Assembly: GCA_005877615.1 (NCBI GenBank)
Contig: VBOD01000115.1
Location: 1 to 38,277 of the forward strand
Direction: 5' to 3'
DNA length: 38,277 nt
Origin: Nitrospirota bacterium
GTDB lineage: Bacteria > Nitrospirota > Nitrospiria > Nitrospirales > NS-4
The notes beneath the pieces were generated by a model. That model saw only the letters and a list, made by a program, of their open reading frames with translations. It was not told where the DNA came from and searched no databases. The position numbers were made by a program, and so were the translations under genes. The stretch's first letter is position 1, and the number at the start of each line of letters is the position of its first letter. This document shows, in pieces, positions 3 through 6,741 of the stretch.

Positions 3-485
3 GCCGGGCAGACCGAGGACGCCCTCACCGTGTGGGGCTTCGATCTCCCGTACCTCAAAGGCGTGGAGTGCCCCTTCGATCTGAACTCGCCCTGGTACCA
101 GTGGCGGACGGACGTTGGGCTCCCGACGCTGGAGCAGCGCCTACGGGAAGAAGGGTTCCGGGTCGGAGTCATCGCAAGCCTCGCGCCCGCTTTCCCCTCC
201 AGGACGGGGCGGGTCACCTCCGTCCGCATTCTCCATTCGGACGGCGTGCTCTATGTCAGAGGCGATGAGCTGCGCCGCGTGCTAATGCTCGCGAGCACCA
301 AGTTCGACTTCGACATCGTCGGGATGCAGGTCCAGTTCACCGGGCGCGGCAGCGGCCACGGCGTGGGTATGTGCCAGTGGGGCGCCAAGGAGCTGGCCGA
401 AAAGGGCTACAGCGCGGAGACCATCCTGCGCTACTACTATTCCGGCGCCGACATCCGGGACCTCGACAGCCTGCCTCGCCGTTAG
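3..485 (+). CDS. SpoIID/LytB-domain protein, C-terminal part (5' end outside window)
   Basis: The reading frame is already open at the window edge, so the start and N-terminus are missing. The last 161 or so residues carry the SpoIID/LytB signature GRGSGHGVGMCQWGAKELA followed by an ILRYYYSGADI segment. In characterised SpoIID proteins this domain is a lytic transglycosylase acting on peptidoglycan glycan strands stripped of stem peptides. In non-sporulating bacteria the domain is probably used in cell-wall remodelling (inference). The gene ends 7 bases before queA on the same strand, so the two may be cotranscribed. Family assignment is firm from the motif; enzymatic role is by homology only. 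Confidence 0.85.
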   Translation, partial: AGQTEDALTVWGFDLPYLKGVECPFDLNSPWYQWRTDVGLPTLEQRLREEGFRVGVIASLAPAFPSRTGRVTSVRILHSDGVLYVRGDELRRVLMLASTKFDFDIVGMQVQFTGRGSGHGVGMCQWGAKELAEKGYSAETILRYYYSGADIRDLDSLPRR

Positions 486-492
486 TCGCCCG

Positions 493-1518
493 ATGCGGCT
501 GGAGGACTTCGACTATCCCTTCGACGAGTCCCTGATCGCCCAGCATCCAATCGAGCCCCGCGACCGTGCCCGGCTCCTCGTCGTGGATCGGCGTACCGGC
601 GCGTTGGCCCACCATCTCATCGCCGAGCTCCCCACGCTGCTTCGTCCGAACGACCTGCTCGTCCTCAACGACACGCAGGTCATTCCCGCGCGCCTGCCGG
701 GCCTCAAGCGGCCGAGCGGGGGAAAAGTGGAGGTGCTGCTGGTGCGGCAGGGCGAACAAGCGAACCACTGGCATGCCCTCGTACGCGGCCATGTGCGGAC
801 CGGCCAGCAGGTGGAGTTGCCGCACGGCGTCCTCGCGAGCGTGACCACCGCCGGCGAAGGCGGGCACGCCGTCATCACTTTCCCCGGCGGCCTGGACGTT
901 CTTGCCTATGCGGAGAAGGCCGGGCAGGTGCCTCTGCCGCCTTACATCCATCGCACGCCTGTTGAAGACGACCGCGTCCACTACCAGACCGTGTTCGCGC
1001 GCCGTCCCGGCGCGGTGGCCGCGCCGACCGCCGGCCTGCACTTCACGGAGCCGCTGCTGCAAGCTCTCACTGCGCAGGGTGTCAGGGCGGGGTATGTGAC
1101 GCTGCACGTGGGGCCGGGCACCTTCAAGCCGGTCACCTGTGAGGACATCCGCCGGCACGTGATGGACCCGGAATGGTACGAGCTGCCGGCCGCGACGGCC
1201 AAGCTGGTGAACGAGACGAGGGCGGCCGGAGGGCGGATCGTCGCCGTGGGGAGCACGGCGGTGCGGGTGCTGGAGACGACGGCGCAGAACGGGTTGCCGC
1301 TGGAAGCCGGCGCCGGGGAGACGGGCCTGTTCATCTACCCCGGCTTTCGCTTTTCGGTCGTGGACGTGCTGCTCACCAACTTCCACCTGCCGAAGAGCAC
1401 GCTCTTCATGCTAGTCTGCGCGCTGGCCGGACTGGAGCGCCTGCTGGAAGCCTACCGCGTCGCCGCCGCCGAACGGTACCGGTTCTACTCCTATGGCGAC
1501 GCGATGCTGATCCTCTGA
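493..1518 (+). CDS. queA: S-adenosylmethionine:tRNA ribosyltransferase-isomerase QueA
   Basis: This 341-residue protein has the usual QueA length and diagnostic segments: an N-terminal DFDYPFDESLIAQHP, a central TPVEDDRVHYQTVFA, PTAGLHFTEPLL, and TLHVGPGTFKPV. QueA transfers and isomerises the ribosyl part of AdoMet onto preQ1 at tRNA position 34 to give epoxyqueuosine, in the cytoplasm. The ATG at 493 follows the SpoIID-domain stop by 7 bases and begins at the conserved N-terminus. There is no strong Shine-Dalgarno, so it is probably translated by coupling. Its stop codon lies 1 base before the 52-bp direct repeat that bounds the inserted segment. No other queuosine gene is visible in the window. 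Confidence 0.96.
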   Translation: MRLEDFDYPFDESLIAQHPIEPRDRARLLVVDRRTGALAHHLIAELPTLLRPNDLLVLNDTQVIPARLPGLKRPSGGKVEVLLVRQGEQANHWHALVRGHVRTGQQVELPHGVLASVTTAGEGGHAVITFPGGLDVLAYAEKAGQVPLPPYIHRTPVEDDRVHYQTVFARRPGAVAAPTAGLHFTEPLLQALTAQGVRAGYVTLHVGPGTFKPVTCEDIRRHVMDPEWYELPAATAKLVNETRAAGGRIVAVGSTAVRVLETTAQNGLPLEAGAGETGLFIYPGFRFSVVDVLLTNFHLPKSTLFMLVCALAGLERLLEAYRVAAAERYRFYSYGDAMLIL

Positions 1519-1519
1519 C

Positions 1520-1571
1520 CTACTCCTGGATCTGCCTTTTGCGCTTGTTCAGGTAGAAGTTGCGGACGGCG
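1520..1571. repeat. 52-bp direct repeat, left copy (orphan 3' end of mlaA)
   Basis: These 52 bases are identical to 5895-5946, where they are the stop codon and last 17 codons of intact mlaA (minus strand). Here the copy is attached to no mlaA body. It lies between the queA stop codon and the stop codon of the protease-FGE gene. The match ends at both sides with an immediate mismatch (1519 c against 5894 a; 1572 a against 5947 c). The orphan copy is under no visible coding constraint yet has no substitutions, which suggests a recent duplication. Confidence 0.95.
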
Positions 1572-1572
1572 A

Positions 1573-3186
1573 TCACGGGACATCAGTGGCGCACCGAAAG
1601 CCGAGCGTGGGGCCCCAGTAGCTCATCTCGTCCCACCCGCGGTAGCTGGCGCGCAGCTCCAACGGGCTTTGGCTCCAGTCGCCGCCGCGCAGGACCCGGA
1701 ACGATCCCCTGAGCGGACCCTGCGGATCGCGAGGCGGAGCGACTGAGTAATATTCCTCTGCATACCAGTCACTTACCCACTCCCATGCGTTCCCGACGAG
1801 ATCAAATACGCCATAGGGCGACATCGTCGCCGGAAAGCTGCCGATCGCTGCCGGTCGTTGACCGATGGCTCGCGCCGGTTGCTCTTTCACCAGGTTCTTG
1901 ATCAGCTCCACGCTATTGCCCCATGGATAGCGTCGTCCATCGGTCCCCCTGGCCGCTTTTTCCCACTCGGCTTCTGTCGGGAGCCGCCGCCCGCGCCATT
2001 GACAAAAGGTGCGGGCTTGGGCCCAGGTCACATTCGTCACAGGATATTGGGCGCGCTCCGCGTCGTCGAAGATCTGGCGATCCTTGGGTGGAAGACAGGC
2101 CCCACTTTTGACGCATAGTCGGTATTGCGCGTTGGTGACTTCATACTTATCGATCCAATACGAACTGAGACGGGTCCGGTGCATCGGTCGCGAATCTGGC
2201 AGTCCGTCTTCATCGCCCATGAGAAATTCCCCCTCCGGAATCAGCACCATTCCTTCCGGAGGAAGAACACCATTCTGAGCTAGTCGCTGCAACTCCCCTT
2301 GTTGCGCCGCCACGAGCTGCTCATCCACTTTGGCGATCGCGCTTGGGTCTACGTTTCCACTTGGACCCTGGTCCTGGGCGGCCCCGGGCTGGGGCCGCGG
2401 GATCGGGGCGCGCCGTGTTTCAACTTTCGCCTGGCCGGTGCTAGGCTCGGCCGGGCCGGCAGGAGGCGTGGCAGGCTCTTGAAAACGAACGGCATCAATC
2501 CGGACTGTCGTCCGAGCCATCTCGCGCACCATCTTTTCCATGGGTTTTTTCTTGGACGCGTTTCGTCCCTTTCCGATCGCCGCAAAATCAAAATCCGGAA
2601 TGTTGGCCAGAAGCGGTGTCGCGTAACTGATCGGCACCACAAAACCCATCCCTTCCGGTGGAATTCCAGACGGGTGGCTGAATTTGGTCGTCACGATTCC
2701 GATCAACTCGCCCTGACTATTGAAGACCGGCCCTCCGCTGCTGCCCGGATTGAAGGCCGCATCAACCTGGAAGACCCGCTTGACGCCCTTTGTCCGGACT
2801 GCGGCGATCCGCCCATGCGAGACCGCCGCTTCCCGAAGGCCAAACGGGAACCCGACCGTGACGACTTCTTCGTCAAGCTGGACCGCCCCGGCATAGCCTA
2901 TTGGGGATTCGGAGAGCCCTACGGTCTCGATCTTCAGTAAGGTCAAGTCCTGCTCGGGATCCGTGCTAACAACAACTGCCGGAGCACGGAATTCTCCAGC
3001 CGTGACGACGACGATACGGCGGGCGTTGGACACCACATGATGGGCGGTCAGAATGTAGCCGTCCGAATGGACGATCACTCCACTTCCTGCCGGTCTCTCC
3101 GTAGGCCCGTTCGGGCCTTCGGCCGCACCCAGAATACCAGCGCCCAAGAAGATGACCAGTCCACAGCAAAGCCCTAGGCGCCTCAT
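1573..3186 (-). CDS. Exported trypsin-like serine protease fused to a formylglycine-generating-enzyme-type domain
   Basis: The 537-residue protein has a signal peptide (about 1-22), a DegP-like S1C protease domain (about 30-200) and a proline-rich linker (about 235-285). A C-terminal FGE/SUMF1-type domain follows (about 310-537). The catalytic triad is visible as TAHHVV (H50), DPEQDLTLL (D80) and FNPGSSGGPVFN (S150). The FGE part shows MVLIPEGEFLMGD, YEVTNAQY, RLPTEAEWEKAARG, NAWEWVSDWY and RVLRGGDW. No PDZ domain follows the protease. FGE-type folds in bacteria often lack the copper-binding cysteines and serve other roles; no sulfatase is nearby. The start overlaps the DUF3365 stop by ATGA (3183-3186), indicating coupling. 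The stop codon is one base from the direct repeat, so the gene ends exactly at the island border. Confidence 0.9.
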   Translation of the reverse strand: MRRLGLCCGLVIFLGAGILGAAEGPNGPTERPAGSGVIVHSDGYILTAHHVVSNARRIVVVTAGEFRAPAVVVSTDPEQDLTLLKIETVGLSESPIGYAGAVQLDEEVVTVGFPFGLREAAVSHGRIAAVRTKGVKRVFQVDAAFNPGSSGGPVFNSQGELIGIVTTKFSHPSGIPPEGMGFVVPISYATPLLANIPDFDFAAIGKGRNASKKKPMEKMVREMARTTVRIDAVRFQEPATPPAGPAEPSTGQAKVETRRAPIPRPQPGAAQDQGPSGNVDPSAIAKVDEQLVAAQQGELQRLAQNGVLPPEGMVLIPEGEFLMGDEDGLPDSRPMHRTRLSSYWIDKYEVTNAQYRLCVKSGACLPPKDRQIFDDAERAQYPVTNVTWAQARTFCQWRGRRLPTEAEWEKAARGTDGRRYPWGNSVELIKNLVKEQPARAIGQRPAAIGSFPATMSPYGVFDLVGNAWEWVSDWYAEEYYSVAPPRDPQGPLRGSFRVLRGGDWSQSPLELRASYRGWDEMSYWGPTLGFRCATDVP

Positions 3187-3968
3187 CGTTGAATCGGGAT
3201 CACCACACTGATCGCTCCGGCATTTTGCCCCAGACGAAGACCTTCTCGCGGATAGCCGGTTTTGTCAAGTTCCCCTTTGGGTTCCCCATGACAGGTCAGA
3301 CACTGACGGGTCGTGTAGAGCGGAAACATCAGCCGCAATGACTTGCTCTTGGCGGTCACCTGGCTGATTAACTTTTCACGCGGGTAGGAGGGATCGGCAA
3401 ATTCTTGCAGGACTGATTTCTCGAAGTCATCCGGCGCATTGGAGGGGTTTCGCGGGCTCAGCGCGGTCTGCTTGAGCCGGACCCCCGTTGCCTCCCTAAA
3501 GCGGCCCGCCACTCTCGACCCGAATACCGCGGGAATAAATCCTTTGAAGCCGACCCCTTTACGGTTTATCTCGGGCTGGGCCTCAGCCACGACCTTCTTG
3601 CTCACAGCGACAAGGGTCGCCAACATCTCCTTCGCATTTCGTGAGAGCCGGGCGGAATTCAGCTCCTGCAGGTCAATGCCAGATCGGCTGCGAAACATTT
3701 CCATAAGCTGTTGCTCGAACACCTTAGGCGTGAAGCCTTTATTCTCCTTGCTGGGATCGTCGACCAGCTCCTGATTCTCATTGATGACGTAGCGCCCGGA
3801 GTCGAGAAGAATTGCGAGCAAGCGCGCGGTCTGCTCAATTTCAGAGACGCTTTGAAGGGAGGGGTTTGCGCCTGGCGGTTGCTTGGACAAAGACACGGGT
3901 TGGCTTATGGCTGATCCGCTGGTAGCCAACAGCACAGGAAAAACCCACGCAAGAACATTCCGCATCAT
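3183..3968 (-). CDS. DUF3365-type exported haem c protein
   Basis: From the ATG at 3968 the product is 261 residues, with an N-terminal signal peptide (MMRNVLAWVFPVLLATSGSA). The C-terminal third carries QCLTCHGEPKG, one CxxCH haem c motif (C223, C226, H227). The surrounding pattern of KSLRLMFPLYT, CHGEP and a GYPREGLRLGQNAGAISV tail is that of the DUF3365/Tll0287-like haem domain, usually a periplasmic redox or ligand sensor. The frame stays open upstream to 4061, but that extension lacks a signal peptide, so the start at 3968 is preferred. No clear ribosome-binding site is seen. It is upstream of and overlaps the protease-FGE gene by four bases, so the two are probably made together. A sensory or redox role is inference. 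Confidence 0.85.
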   Translation of the reverse strand: MMRNVLAWVFPVLLATSGSAISQPVSLSKQPPGANPSLQSVSEIEQTARLLAILLDSGRYVINENQELVDDPSKENKGFTPKVFEQQLMEMFRSRSGIDLQELNSARLSRNAKEMLATLVAVSKKVVAEAQPEINRKGVGFKGFIPAVFGSRVAGRFREATGVRLKQTALSPRNPSNAPDDFEKSVLQEFADPSYPREKLISQVTAKSKSLRLMFPLYTTRQCLTCHGEPKGELDKTGYPREGLRLGQNAGAISVVIPIQR

Positions 3969-4198
3969 GGTCCACGCAGGGAAACAATCACGCTGCGATG
4001 ATACCCTCTGGTCCCTTCTGACATCAAGGTCAGAACGCGTCCGGAGGCGACACCGGGACACCAGGCTGGGACCCAGTGCCCCGGTATCTCAATTGAGCTA
4101 CTTAGTCAGTCTTGGAACCCTCGAACTCGCTGCACGCCTCACATTTCGCTTCGTGAGCGTGCGAGACCGCATGCCAGGATCCTTGCGATTTTCAGGAC

Positions 4199-4681
4199 TC
4201 ATCCTCCTTCAGATCCTCCCATGTTATCCTGATTTTCGGGAGGATAATCCTTGTGTTCCTCAATCCGGTTAATGGTTAATGAGCCACAGACGATGCGAGT
4301 GGCAGTTGTCACGCAATCCTCTATCGGCGCAGCGGTCTTGAGCTCTTCCACCGGTGAGATCATCTGCCAATGGCTTAAGAGCTCGTCTGCAGCAACGTCA
4401 TTGATGCCGTGAGCGCGGGCGCGCAGCATCTGGAACAGCTTTTCAATTTCGGCCTTTGCGGTGTTCTTATCTCCACGACTCATCGCATCCCGTACGACGC
4501 CTACTTTCTCAACGTAGGGATCAAAATTGGATGCAGGGTAGGTGGCCTTGTAGAAGGTCAGCGAGTTGGCCATCTCGTTGCACCACCCGCACTCAGACGC
4601 GAGGGCGACACCCAGCGTCAAGAGGCACACTGTACAGACGGCGGCCAGCGCAACGAGTACCTTATTCATCTTTCTGCTCAT
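4199..4681 (-). CDS. Small exported protein with a CxxC motif after the signal peptide
   Basis: The ATG at 4681 is set by an excellent Shine-Dalgarno, GGAGGTGA, three bases upstream; a longer open frame to 4726 lacks one. The 160-residue product has a signal peptide (about 1-28), then SECGWCNEMANS with C31 and C34, a mostly helical middle and two more cysteines near 122 and 131. The tail is rich in N, G, E and D. The family is not recognised. The CGWC pair resembles thioredoxin-like active sites but no thioredoxin fold is evident; a helical metal- or redox-linked periplasmic protein is possible. It lies 230 bases upstream of the DUF3365 gene in the same direction. Confidence 0.8.
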   Translation of the reverse strand: MSRKMNKVLVALAAVCTVCLLTLGVALASECGWCNEMANSLTFYKATYPASNFDPYVEKVGVVRDAMSRGDKNTAKAEIEKLFQMLRARAHGINDVAADELLSHWQMISPVEELKTAAPIEDCVTTATRIVCGSLTINRIEEHKDYPPENQDNMGGSEGG

Positions 4682-4874
4682 GTTCACCTCCATTGCTCTT
4701 CTCAAAAAGATCCTTTTACCTGTCATCCCTTTACCGCAAAAATGACTTCAGATCTCTTTAAACGACGGGGGAGGCCGTCCTCTATCCTTAGCCCCTTGGT
4801 TATTCTTTGCCAACATGTGAACCATCATACCTTGGTCCCGGCGGCGGCATCGTCGTTTCTTTGGCGCAAACCTC

Positions 4875-5393
4875 TCAGCGGCTCCGATGGATGTCGATCA
4901 CCACGTTGGCTTCGTCCAGCTCCAACGTGACAGGCACACCTTCCTCAAAAACTGAAAGCTTGCTGCCCGCCAAGGTGTCAACGGTAAAGCTTTCGGTCCC
5001 CTCCGGGGTTGAGAGCTTGATCTCCTTCCAGAATTTATCAGCGTAGCTCAGGGTTCCTTCGATGATGCGGTGACCAGCGGCCGACATGCCCGGCTTATGC
5101 GCGTCTATGAGCAGGTTGCCTTCATCCACGACCAATGTCAGCTCGTCGCCGATCTTGGCGTCGTACACTCCTATCCGCTCGGCTTTCAGAACACTGATCG
5201 TTCTATGCTGGAGTCCATATTGGGGCCGCACAAAAAACATCGAGGGGTAGACCTTGGTCACGATTCCCTTCACCTCCATGTGGGCGATGTGGGGGAAGGG
5301 ACCGGAGCGGTCGGGATGATCGGCGGCGCCTGGGGCCGCCCAAAACAGAATCGCTGCACACACGGGCAGGATGCAGTAGTAGAAACGAGTCAT
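4875..5393 (-). CDS. Exported protein of unknown function, predicted beta-rich
   Basis: This 172-residue protein starts at an ATG with AGGAGGT five bases upstream. It begins with a signal peptide (about 1-24, ending APGAA) and continues with short alternating strands such as EVKGIVTKVYPSMFFVRP, GDELTLVVDEGNLLIDAHK and GVPVTLELDEANVVIDIHR. The last two look like two copies of one motif ending in an I-D-x-H element, suggesting an internal duplication of a small beta domain. No catalytic motif is seen and the family is not recognised. It lies second in the minus-strand gene set of the inserted segment. A hairpin-like sequence with stem GACGG/CCGTC lies downstream near 4768-4783 but lacks a good T-run. 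Confidence 0.8.
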   Translation of the reverse strand: MTRFYYCILPVCAAILFWAAPGAADHPDRSGPFPHIAHMEVKGIVTKVYPSMFFVRPQYGLQHRTISVLKAERIGVYDAKIGDELTLVVDEGNLLIDAHKPGMSAAGHRIIEGTLSYADKFWKEIKLSTPEGTESFTVDTLAGSKLSVFEEGVPVTLELDEANVVIDIHRSR

Positions 5394-5548
5394 GGCTTAC
5401 CTCCTGACTGCGACAGTCTAGCTGCGTCGCTTACTGGCCCGGGATAGCCCCCAGGGACGAAACCGAGATCTGATATTCTTGGATCGGCGTCACCATTAAA
5501 CGGATGCGAGGAGCCGTCCGCGTGAGACTGCGGCTGAACCGGCTCCCC

Positions 5549-5689
5549 TCAGGCTGCTCGTTTGGTCTCCTCTGTGTGCGGCTGGCCAGGTGCAGACTTC
5601 GGCTTACGGCATGAGATTTCAATGCAGACGAACAGGAGCACGATCAGTGCCGCGACTCCGCTCACGATGCCCCAGTATCCCGCCGACAT
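5549..5689 (-). CDS. 46-residue single-pass membrane protein
   Basis: Reading the minus strand from the ATG at 5689 gives a 46-residue protein. It has a short N-terminus (MSAGYWG), one hydrophobic segment (about residues 8-25, IVSGVAALIVLLFVCIEI) and a basic and acidic tail ending ETKRAA. An AAGGA-type ribosome-binding site lies about ten bases upstream. Size and shape match small membrane subunits or stabilising peptides, but no family is recognised. It would be the first gene of the minus-strand set in the inserted segment, so it may be made with the exported proteins downstream. The evidence is the membrane segment, the ribosome-binding site and the position; the gene is short enough that chance remains possible. 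Confidence 0.6.
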   Translation of the reverse strand: MSAGYWGIVSGVAALIVLLFVCIEISCRKPKSAPGQPHTEETKRAA

Positions 5690-5849
5690 GTCTGCCTTTC
5701 CTTCAAGGTCCTAGAAAAAACATTCTCCCCCCTCCGGGGGCGTGCAAGCGGAATACCACCGGCGCCGGAGGCGGAGCTCACTCTAGCCTATTGATCTTTA
5801 GGCGAATTTTTTTCGGCTTCCGCTAAGGCAGCCGGTGGTCTCTGGGTAA

Positions 5850-5898
5850 GTGGTGGTTGAAGGATGATTCCGTCTGGTGGACTTCAGCCAACCACTAC
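5850..5898 (-). other. Imperfect inverted repeat at the right border of the inserted segment
   Basis: GTGGTGGTTG at 5850-5859 pairs with CAACCACTAC at 5889-5898 with one mismatch and a 29-base loop. The right arm overlaps the mlaA stop codon and the first bases of the direct repeat. It could end mlaA transcription, though there is no T-run, or mark a recombination site. Both ideas are inference. Confidence 0.35.
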
Positions 5899-5946
5899 TC
5901 CTGGATCTGCCTTTTGCGCTTGTTCAGGTAGAAGTTGCGGACGGCG
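5895..5946. repeat. 52-bp direct repeat, right copy (native mlaA 3' end)
   Basis: This copy is the final 17 codons and stop of mlaA and is identical base for base to 1520-1571. Because it is continuous with a complete mlaA it is taken as the functional copy; the left copy is the orphan. If the two copies recombined, queA and mlaA would be convergent with one base between their stop codons. Confidence 0.95.
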
Positions 5947-6653
5947 CTGTAGAGGTCGAGCGTCCCTTCCTCCACGCTCTCGAAGGTCTCCAGATTGAGC
6001 GCCCGCTCGTTGAGGATGTCTTCGGTCTTCTTGCCGAAGGACGCGGCCAGCGGAATGACGTAGCTGATCGGGTCCATGGCGATGTCGAACACGTACCCCA
6101 CGCCGTCGCGGAGCGTGAGGGGAGGCAGCAGCGGCAGCACCAGGTAGCGGCTCTGCTTCCAGCCCCACACGCCGAACGTCTGTCCGGTGTCCTCGTCGCT
6201 CTTCTCGATGCCGAACTGATACTTGGCGACGTCGGTCATGCCCGCCCCCCCGAGAATGGTGTTGATGAGGAAGCGCGCCAGCTCCCGGCCGGCGCCGTCC
6301 AATTTGCCCTGGAGCACGCTGTTCACGAACCGCTTGGGGAAGCCGATGTGGTCGAAGAGATTATGGATGATCTGCTTCTCCCCGTCGCCCACAACGACGT
6401 CATAGCCCTTGGCCGCGGGCTTGAGCACATACACGTCCAGATAATCGTGGTTGAACGTGAACATCTTCTCGTTGAACGGCTCCCAGGGATCGTAATCCCC
6501 GCTCGTCTCCTCGTCGGGCTTGGCGATCTGCTTGCCGGTCACGACCACCTCTTCCAGGGCCTGGGCTTCCCGAGAAGCCCCGCCGGTCAGACTGAGTCCC
6601 ACAGTCCCAACGATCAGGATGACGGCCAGCCGCGCTGTTCCGCGTCTTTCCAC
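5895..6653 (-). CDS. mlaA: MlaA/VacJ family outer-membrane lipid asymmetry protein
   Basis: MlaA removes misplaced phospholipids from the outer leaflet of the outer membrane. The hallmark is DYDPWEPFNEKMFTFN at about residues 53-68, followed by FVNSVLQGKLDGAGRELARF, GVWGWKQSRYLVLPLLPP and DPISY. The frame is open to 6827, but the GTG at 6653 follows GAGGAA by six bases and opens a signal peptide, giving 252 residues. The expected lipobox cysteine is absent (the region reads GLSLTGGAS), so this copy may be soluble or held by signal anchor, unlike E. coli MlaA. No mlaBCDEF genes are in the window. The last 17 codons are duplicated at 1520-1571. The C-terminus after about 235 is very basic (NKRKRQ). 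Confidence 0.9.
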   Translation of the reverse strand: MERRGTARLAVILIVGTVGLSLTGGASREAQALEEVVVTGKQIAKPDEETSGDYDPWEPFNEKMFTFNHDYLDVYVLKPAAKGYDVVVGDGEKQIIHNLFDHIGFPKRFVNSVLQGKLDGAGRELARFLINTILGGAGMTDVAKYQFGIEKSDEDTGQTFGVWGWKQSRYLVLPLLPPLTLRDGVGYVFDIAMDPISYVIPLAASFGKKTEDILNERALNLETFESVEEGTLDLYSAVRNFYLNKRKRQIQE

Positions 6654-6741
6654 AGTCACTTCCTCGCACCTCCTCGTGGCGTTTACGGCAGCGGTAGAGT
6701 GCCTAAGCAGCCTTCGATAGTCAAGGTTGGGCCCGGGCCCG

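Follow-up and report, generated by a model that had tools for sequence, protein, structure and literature searches.

The segment between queA and mlaA

The window, by which we mean the whole stretch of DNA that was analysed (38,277 nucleotides), is contig 129 of a 1.8-Mb draft genome of a Nitrospirota bacterium (G000; 131 contigs, 90.5% complete). Near one end of the window lies queA (positions 493-1518, + strand; Pfam Queuosine_synth, 6.5e-124), which adjoins mlaA in relatives. Here it is separated by a five-gene cargo from an intact mlaA (5895-6659, - strand; Pfam MlaA, 1e-60; 89% identical in G003). A preliminary description made from the letters alone had reported an exact 52-bp direct repeat at the borders of this segment, and this was confirmed: the copies at 1520-1571 and 5895-5946 are identical at 52 of 52 positions and mismatch directly outside both sides. 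The left copy is, as described, an orphan mlaA 3′ end beside queA that begins one base past the queA TGA; it ends one base before the stop codon of gene A, the first cargo gene, and thus abuts cargo coding sequence. The right copy closes the complete mlaA, and direct repeats of the target-gene 3′ end are therefore present at both borders. The earlier count of 17 codons plus the stop needs correction: this copy holds the mlaA stop codon and 16 codons, with one extra base of the gene. Collapsing the repeats leaves a single base between the two stop codons (queA-TGA-C-CTA-mlaA), as had been calculated. The 38-kb window contains no other repeat pair of this kind, and such pairs are very rare in about 0.87 Mb of sequence from the genus. 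The mlaA-side end of the element carries a terminal inverted repeat, GTGGTTG...CAACCAC (5848-5900, - strand; DNA fold z -2.8), which is kept in the G002 alignment. An attC-like structure at the element end was set aside by eye, as it has no RYYYAAC/GTTRRRY pair.

The segment encodes genes A, B, C, D and E and contains no recombinase open reading frame, in agreement with the preliminary description. Gene A (1573-3186, - strand) encodes an exported trypsin-like protease of 537 amino acids with a C-terminal FGE/SUMF1-fold domain (Pfam Trypsin_2, 5.7e-32; FGE-sulfatase, 1.5e-58), and is 79% identical in G002. The H, D and S residues of the protease part are at their usual places. Active FGEs have paired cysteines, which the C-terminus of gene A, by inspection, appears to lack. 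Gene B (3183-4061, - strand; Pfam PF11845, 6.5e-26) overlaps gene A by 4 bp and is Tll0287-like with a CxxCH haem motif, a putative c-type haem sensor. Homology to gene B in G002 begins at residue 32, and its start is probably the ATG near 3968. Genes C (4199-4726, - strand; 175 amino acids) and D (4875-5393, - strand; 172 amino acids) encode exported proteins with no family match in Pfam or NCBIfam. Gene E (5549-5689, - strand) encodes a single-TM protein of 46 amino acids with homologues in G002 (L066:8631-8813) and G005 (L067:10612-10737). Upstream of D lies a relic of a second C gene with an MVTPIQEY motif (5434-5502, - strand), found by tblastn of the 5431-5622 open reading frame, which matches C-gene ends in relatives; the relic fits the usual C-D-B-A order and suggests an earlier C-D duplication in the operon.

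The claim that the segment is low in GC also held (0.58 versus 0.647 for the rest of the window). GC3 separates the cargo genes (0.62-0.72) from queA, mlaA and the amino-acid permease gene (0.865-0.894), and by this measure the operon appears foreign and horizontally acquired.

The site in relatives and a permuted copy behind rnpB

To place the segment in context, we compared it with three genomes of the same genus and four of the same family; all genus genomes are drafts, and the genus surveys were run on sequence stretches. In G001, G003, G006 and G007, queA and mlaA are convergent neighbours without cargo, their stop codons spaced two bases apart in G001, G006 and G007 and 52 bp apart in G003. 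The G005 site holds a different 0.8-kb filling. The insert-free queA-mlaA junction of the window would read TGACCTACTCC. Because the pre-insertion state is visible in relatives, and deleting the segment with one repeat gives a like junction, the insertion in the window is derived. The proposal of integration at the mlaA 3′ end with restoration of the gene is thus supported by the empty site, together with the foreign GC3 and an independent, permuted copy in G002 that has gene-tail flanks of its own and an mlaA-like joint. Perfect identity of the two repeat copies allows a recent insertion, gene conversion or re-insertion; since either of the latter could keep the repeats identical, the event need not be recent.

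Searching for the cargo at other loci placed the operon behind rnpB in G002 and beside moeB/JAMM-type genes in G005. Close relatives of gene A are patchily distributed, occurring in 55 of 236 Nitrospirales genomes, and none was found in the assemblies of G001, G003, G006 and G007. The commonest gene order among Nitrospirales is C-D-B-A; the window and G005 share the order E-D-C-B-A. Between the window and G002 the cargo proteins are 57-79% identical and QueA is 90% identical. Trees group G000, G002 and G005 together, with a branching inside the group that disagrees between trees. From these sequences, exchange of the cargo within the family is likely, faster cargo evolution being the alternative. 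In G005 and at the further Nitrospirales loci inspected, the 2.5 kb to each side of the operon showed no flanking direct repeats of this anatomy. A wider self-comparison revealed a 203-bp direct repeat (87%) in G039 (L175, 2681-2883 and 6494-6696), both copies of which terminate in a stop codon; in one copy this is the stop of gene A. We also considered and set aside a viral origin, gene D having no relatives in phages or viral contigs, and a plasmid origin, as all gene A matches in plasmids were below 60% identity and none covered 80% of the query.

In G002, which belongs to the same genus, the blocks homologous to the segment are ordered 3356-4391 and then 45-3118, a circular permutation. 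The points at which the islet is opened differ accordingly: the A/E joint at mlaA in the window, the C/D joint at rnpB in G002. The insertion point in G002 is the rnpB 3′ end. A full rnpB lies at L066:12649-13063 (Rfam), an orphan rnpB tail of 149 bp (85% identical) at L066 7847-7995, and a third tail at L066 6976-7029, beyond a PIN/MazE-type gene pair. One operon therefore stands behind two unrelated genes, in each case between that gene's tails, and the permuted order together with the second site behind another gene suggests circular movement of the islet. The stretch between the orphan rnpB tails (L066, contig G002:C130, 6976-7995), with its PIN-domain and MazE-type antitoxin-like genes, looks like tandem accretion. 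A dispersed, REP/BIME-like short repeat family (about 40-180 bp, many copies) occurs at L066 about 5500-5690 and in many contigs of G000-G004.

The A/E joint, which is where recombination of the window's repeats would seal a circle, measures 54 bp in G002; in the window the repeat and one extra base make 53 bp. Over its first 33 bp the G002 joint resembles mlaA 3′ ends, agreeing with that of G007 at 26 positions and with that of the window at 22. When a profile of six mlaA ends was run over 30 loci, the top match fell at this joint (E 0.009; next match, 0.97). We read the joint as a decayed mlaA-like 3′ end, a reading whose weight is that of one 33-bp match at the predicted position. From the position, length and mlaA-end likeness of the joint, it is probable that an ancestor of G002 had the tail of an mlaA gene lodged between A and E, like an excised circle of the window type. 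The joint could alternatively be an attP that resembles mlaA; under either reading, the A/E point in G002 would be a recombination site. The converse relic, an rnpB tail between C and D of the window copy, would be expected if that copy came from the rnpB site, but the alignment was no better than chance, so nothing indicates that the window form is derived from the one at rnpB. rnpB (RF00010) was not found in the assemblies of G000, G001 and G003, perhaps due to contig breaks at a repeat-rich locus.

Recombinases, known systems and duplicated gene tails

A PF00589 profile search of the window's assembly, which is incomplete, returned only two tyrosine recombinases, XerC and XerD by score, one of which adjoins hslV and trmFO. 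The sister genomes G001-G003, also drafts, have one or two each. We found no integrase near the islet and no helper ICE/IME with an integrase at mlaA or rnpB in the genus. Among the listed titles and abstracts, none bore on mlaA or rnpB as an integration site. Since XerC and XerD are the only tyrosine recombinases found in the assembly and no integrase was found near the islet, we infer that recombination is supplied in trans; the candidates are Xer, RecA and, by analogy with what has been reported for the microcin H47 island, a RecA-independent short-repeat route (PMC5426353).

That island of E. coli, 13 kb long with long imperfect direct repeats and no recombinase genes, excises and integrates by host functions, although no tested recombination function was found responsible (PMC3191183, PMC5426353). 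It shares with the islet a small cargo, direct-repeat flanks and the lack of recombinase genes. The islet differs in that its repeats are housekeeping-gene tails and its cargo is permuted at a second gene in a relative; mobility of the microcin H47 island is experimental, whereas the islet is known here from sequence alone. CIMEs (cis-mobilizable elements) have attL/attR without integration or transfer genes (PMC5704250) and are alike in both respects, but we found no related integrase-bearing ICE/IME at mlaA or rnpB in the genus. The Dehalococcoides ssrA islands, which are low in GC, lie behind a single-copy gene, are flanked by copies of its 3′ end and form tandem arrays, use the serine integrase DsiB at a single, fixed site of 20 bp (PMC3146451). 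The islet resembles them in low GC and gene-tail flanks, and some of these islands have no integration module; unlike them, the islet has no integrase and several target genes. Tycheposons/additive islands likewise hold cargo between repeated gene 3′ ends, bounded by a tRNA gene or repeated tRNA-gene 3′ ends (PMC10872708); unlike the islet, both target tRNA genes, and tycheposons carry a XerD-like recombinase in the element.

A survey of 3′-end duplications recovered 3 protein-gene cases in 1111 genus open reading frames versus 0 in 521 control open reading frames. Internal-segment controls gave 0 to 2 matches per offset, and the internal-segment and other-family controls together showed few or no tail-duplication events. 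With counts this small, enrichment in the genus is only suggestive, and because it amounts to 3/1111 versus 0/521, the wider pattern is a lead rather than a result. Besides mlaA, the survey, covering about 0.87 Mb, included the nagZ tail of G002, duplicated over 55 bp (84%) about 1 kb apart with a small gene between, and the rng tail of G003, duplicated over 45 bp (84%) about 0.6 kb apart with two small open reading frames between. Comparing the nagZ and rng downstream regions across relatives, we found that in G003 the native sequence downstream of rng resumes after about 1.2 kb. The nagZ tails (L277, contig G002:C139, 7308-7360 and 8302-8356) end REAAEQASV-stop, with a HEPN-domain gene further out. 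The rng tails lie at L304 (contig G003:C195) 7528-7572 and 8142-8186, along with 17 bp that sister genomes do not have downstream of rng; a third exported open reading frame follows the duplication, and then dprA.

Possible explanations for the islet and its proposed movement

With moderate confidence, we consider the segment to be probably a small genomic islet that lacks an integrase and travels in circular form, each circle bearing a single target-gene 3′ end. Recombination between the one gene tail on a circle of the operon E-D-C-B-A and the resident gene end, here that of mlaA, would insert the islet next to a still intact gene and leave an orphan tail at the far border. Recombination between these repeats could release the islet again, and the recombination function, absent from the islet, would have to be supplied by a helper element or the host. 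The 52-bp repeats would then act as att sites; within this scheme the existence of a free circle, the nature of the enzyme and the date of the move are inferred. The 52/52 border repeats, empty sites, foreign GC3 and patchy cargo speak for it, as do the permutation in G002, its mlaA-like A/E joint and the rnpB tails at its flanks. Against it, there is no integrase nearby and only XerC and XerD among the tyrosine recombinases of the assembly; a single-attP integrase would not account for openings at both A/E and C/D; an attP imported from another species fits poorly with the perfect identity of the window copies; and the case is built on draft genus genomes and a single permuted relative, with the circle itself not observed.

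We judge it unlikely that the segment is a decayed conventional island, whether an IME/ICE remnant or a CIME, whose own tyrosine or serine integrase made attL/attR and was later lost. CIMEs do keep attL/attR after losing their integration genes (PMC5704250), some Dehalococcoides ssrA islands in tandem arrays have no integration module (PMC3146451), and the tandem rnpB tails in G002 have the look of accretion; yet neither copy keeps a recombinase remnant, the operon E-D-C-B-A is otherwise complete, and a different lost integrase would have to be assumed for each of the two unrelated targets and opening points. Still less probable is homology-facilitated illegitimate recombination after uptake, with no circle and no dedicated enzyme, in which the tail of a linear tail-plus-cargo fragment recombines at the gene end and the other end joins inside the resident tail, producing the orphan copy. 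This would account for the variable repeat lengths, for the targets mlaA, rnpB, nagZ and rng and for the missing integrase, and a dprA gene does lie downstream of rng in G003, but alone it yields neither the circular permutation nor the mlaA-tail relic at the G002 A/E joint.

A misassembly, in which the 52-bp repeat led an extrachromosomal or separate copy of the islet to be spliced in error into the queA-mlaA contig, seems very doubtful. In a 131-contig draft a short-k assembler could be misled by a shared 52-mer, but 52 bp would be shorter than the usual final assembly k-mers and reads, and such an error would still presuppose a circle in which an mlaA tail links E to A, for which G002 gives independent support. 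We give hardly any credence to a transposase-type event that duplicated 52 bp of target site: exact duplication would explain the 52/52 identity, but the segment contains no transposase, the repeat lengths vary by site (52 versus 149 bp) and the G002 joint relic would become a coincidence.

Beyond the proposed circular movement of the islet, we raise as a tentative possibility that this lineage has a general, integrase-independent route that adds small circles or fragments behind housekeeping genes and duplicates the 3′ end of each. Across three sister genomes, this route would then account for the cases at mlaA, nagZ and rng and for the pair of orphan tails at rnpB, with one operon present at two of these sites in rotated form. 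Integrase-less islands are usually dismissed as remnants. A rotated operon at two gene tails, together with the relic of an old tail, makes circle movement without an encoded recombinase directly testable, and cargo between duplicated gene 3′ ends offers a simple signature for spotting such islets in draft genomes.
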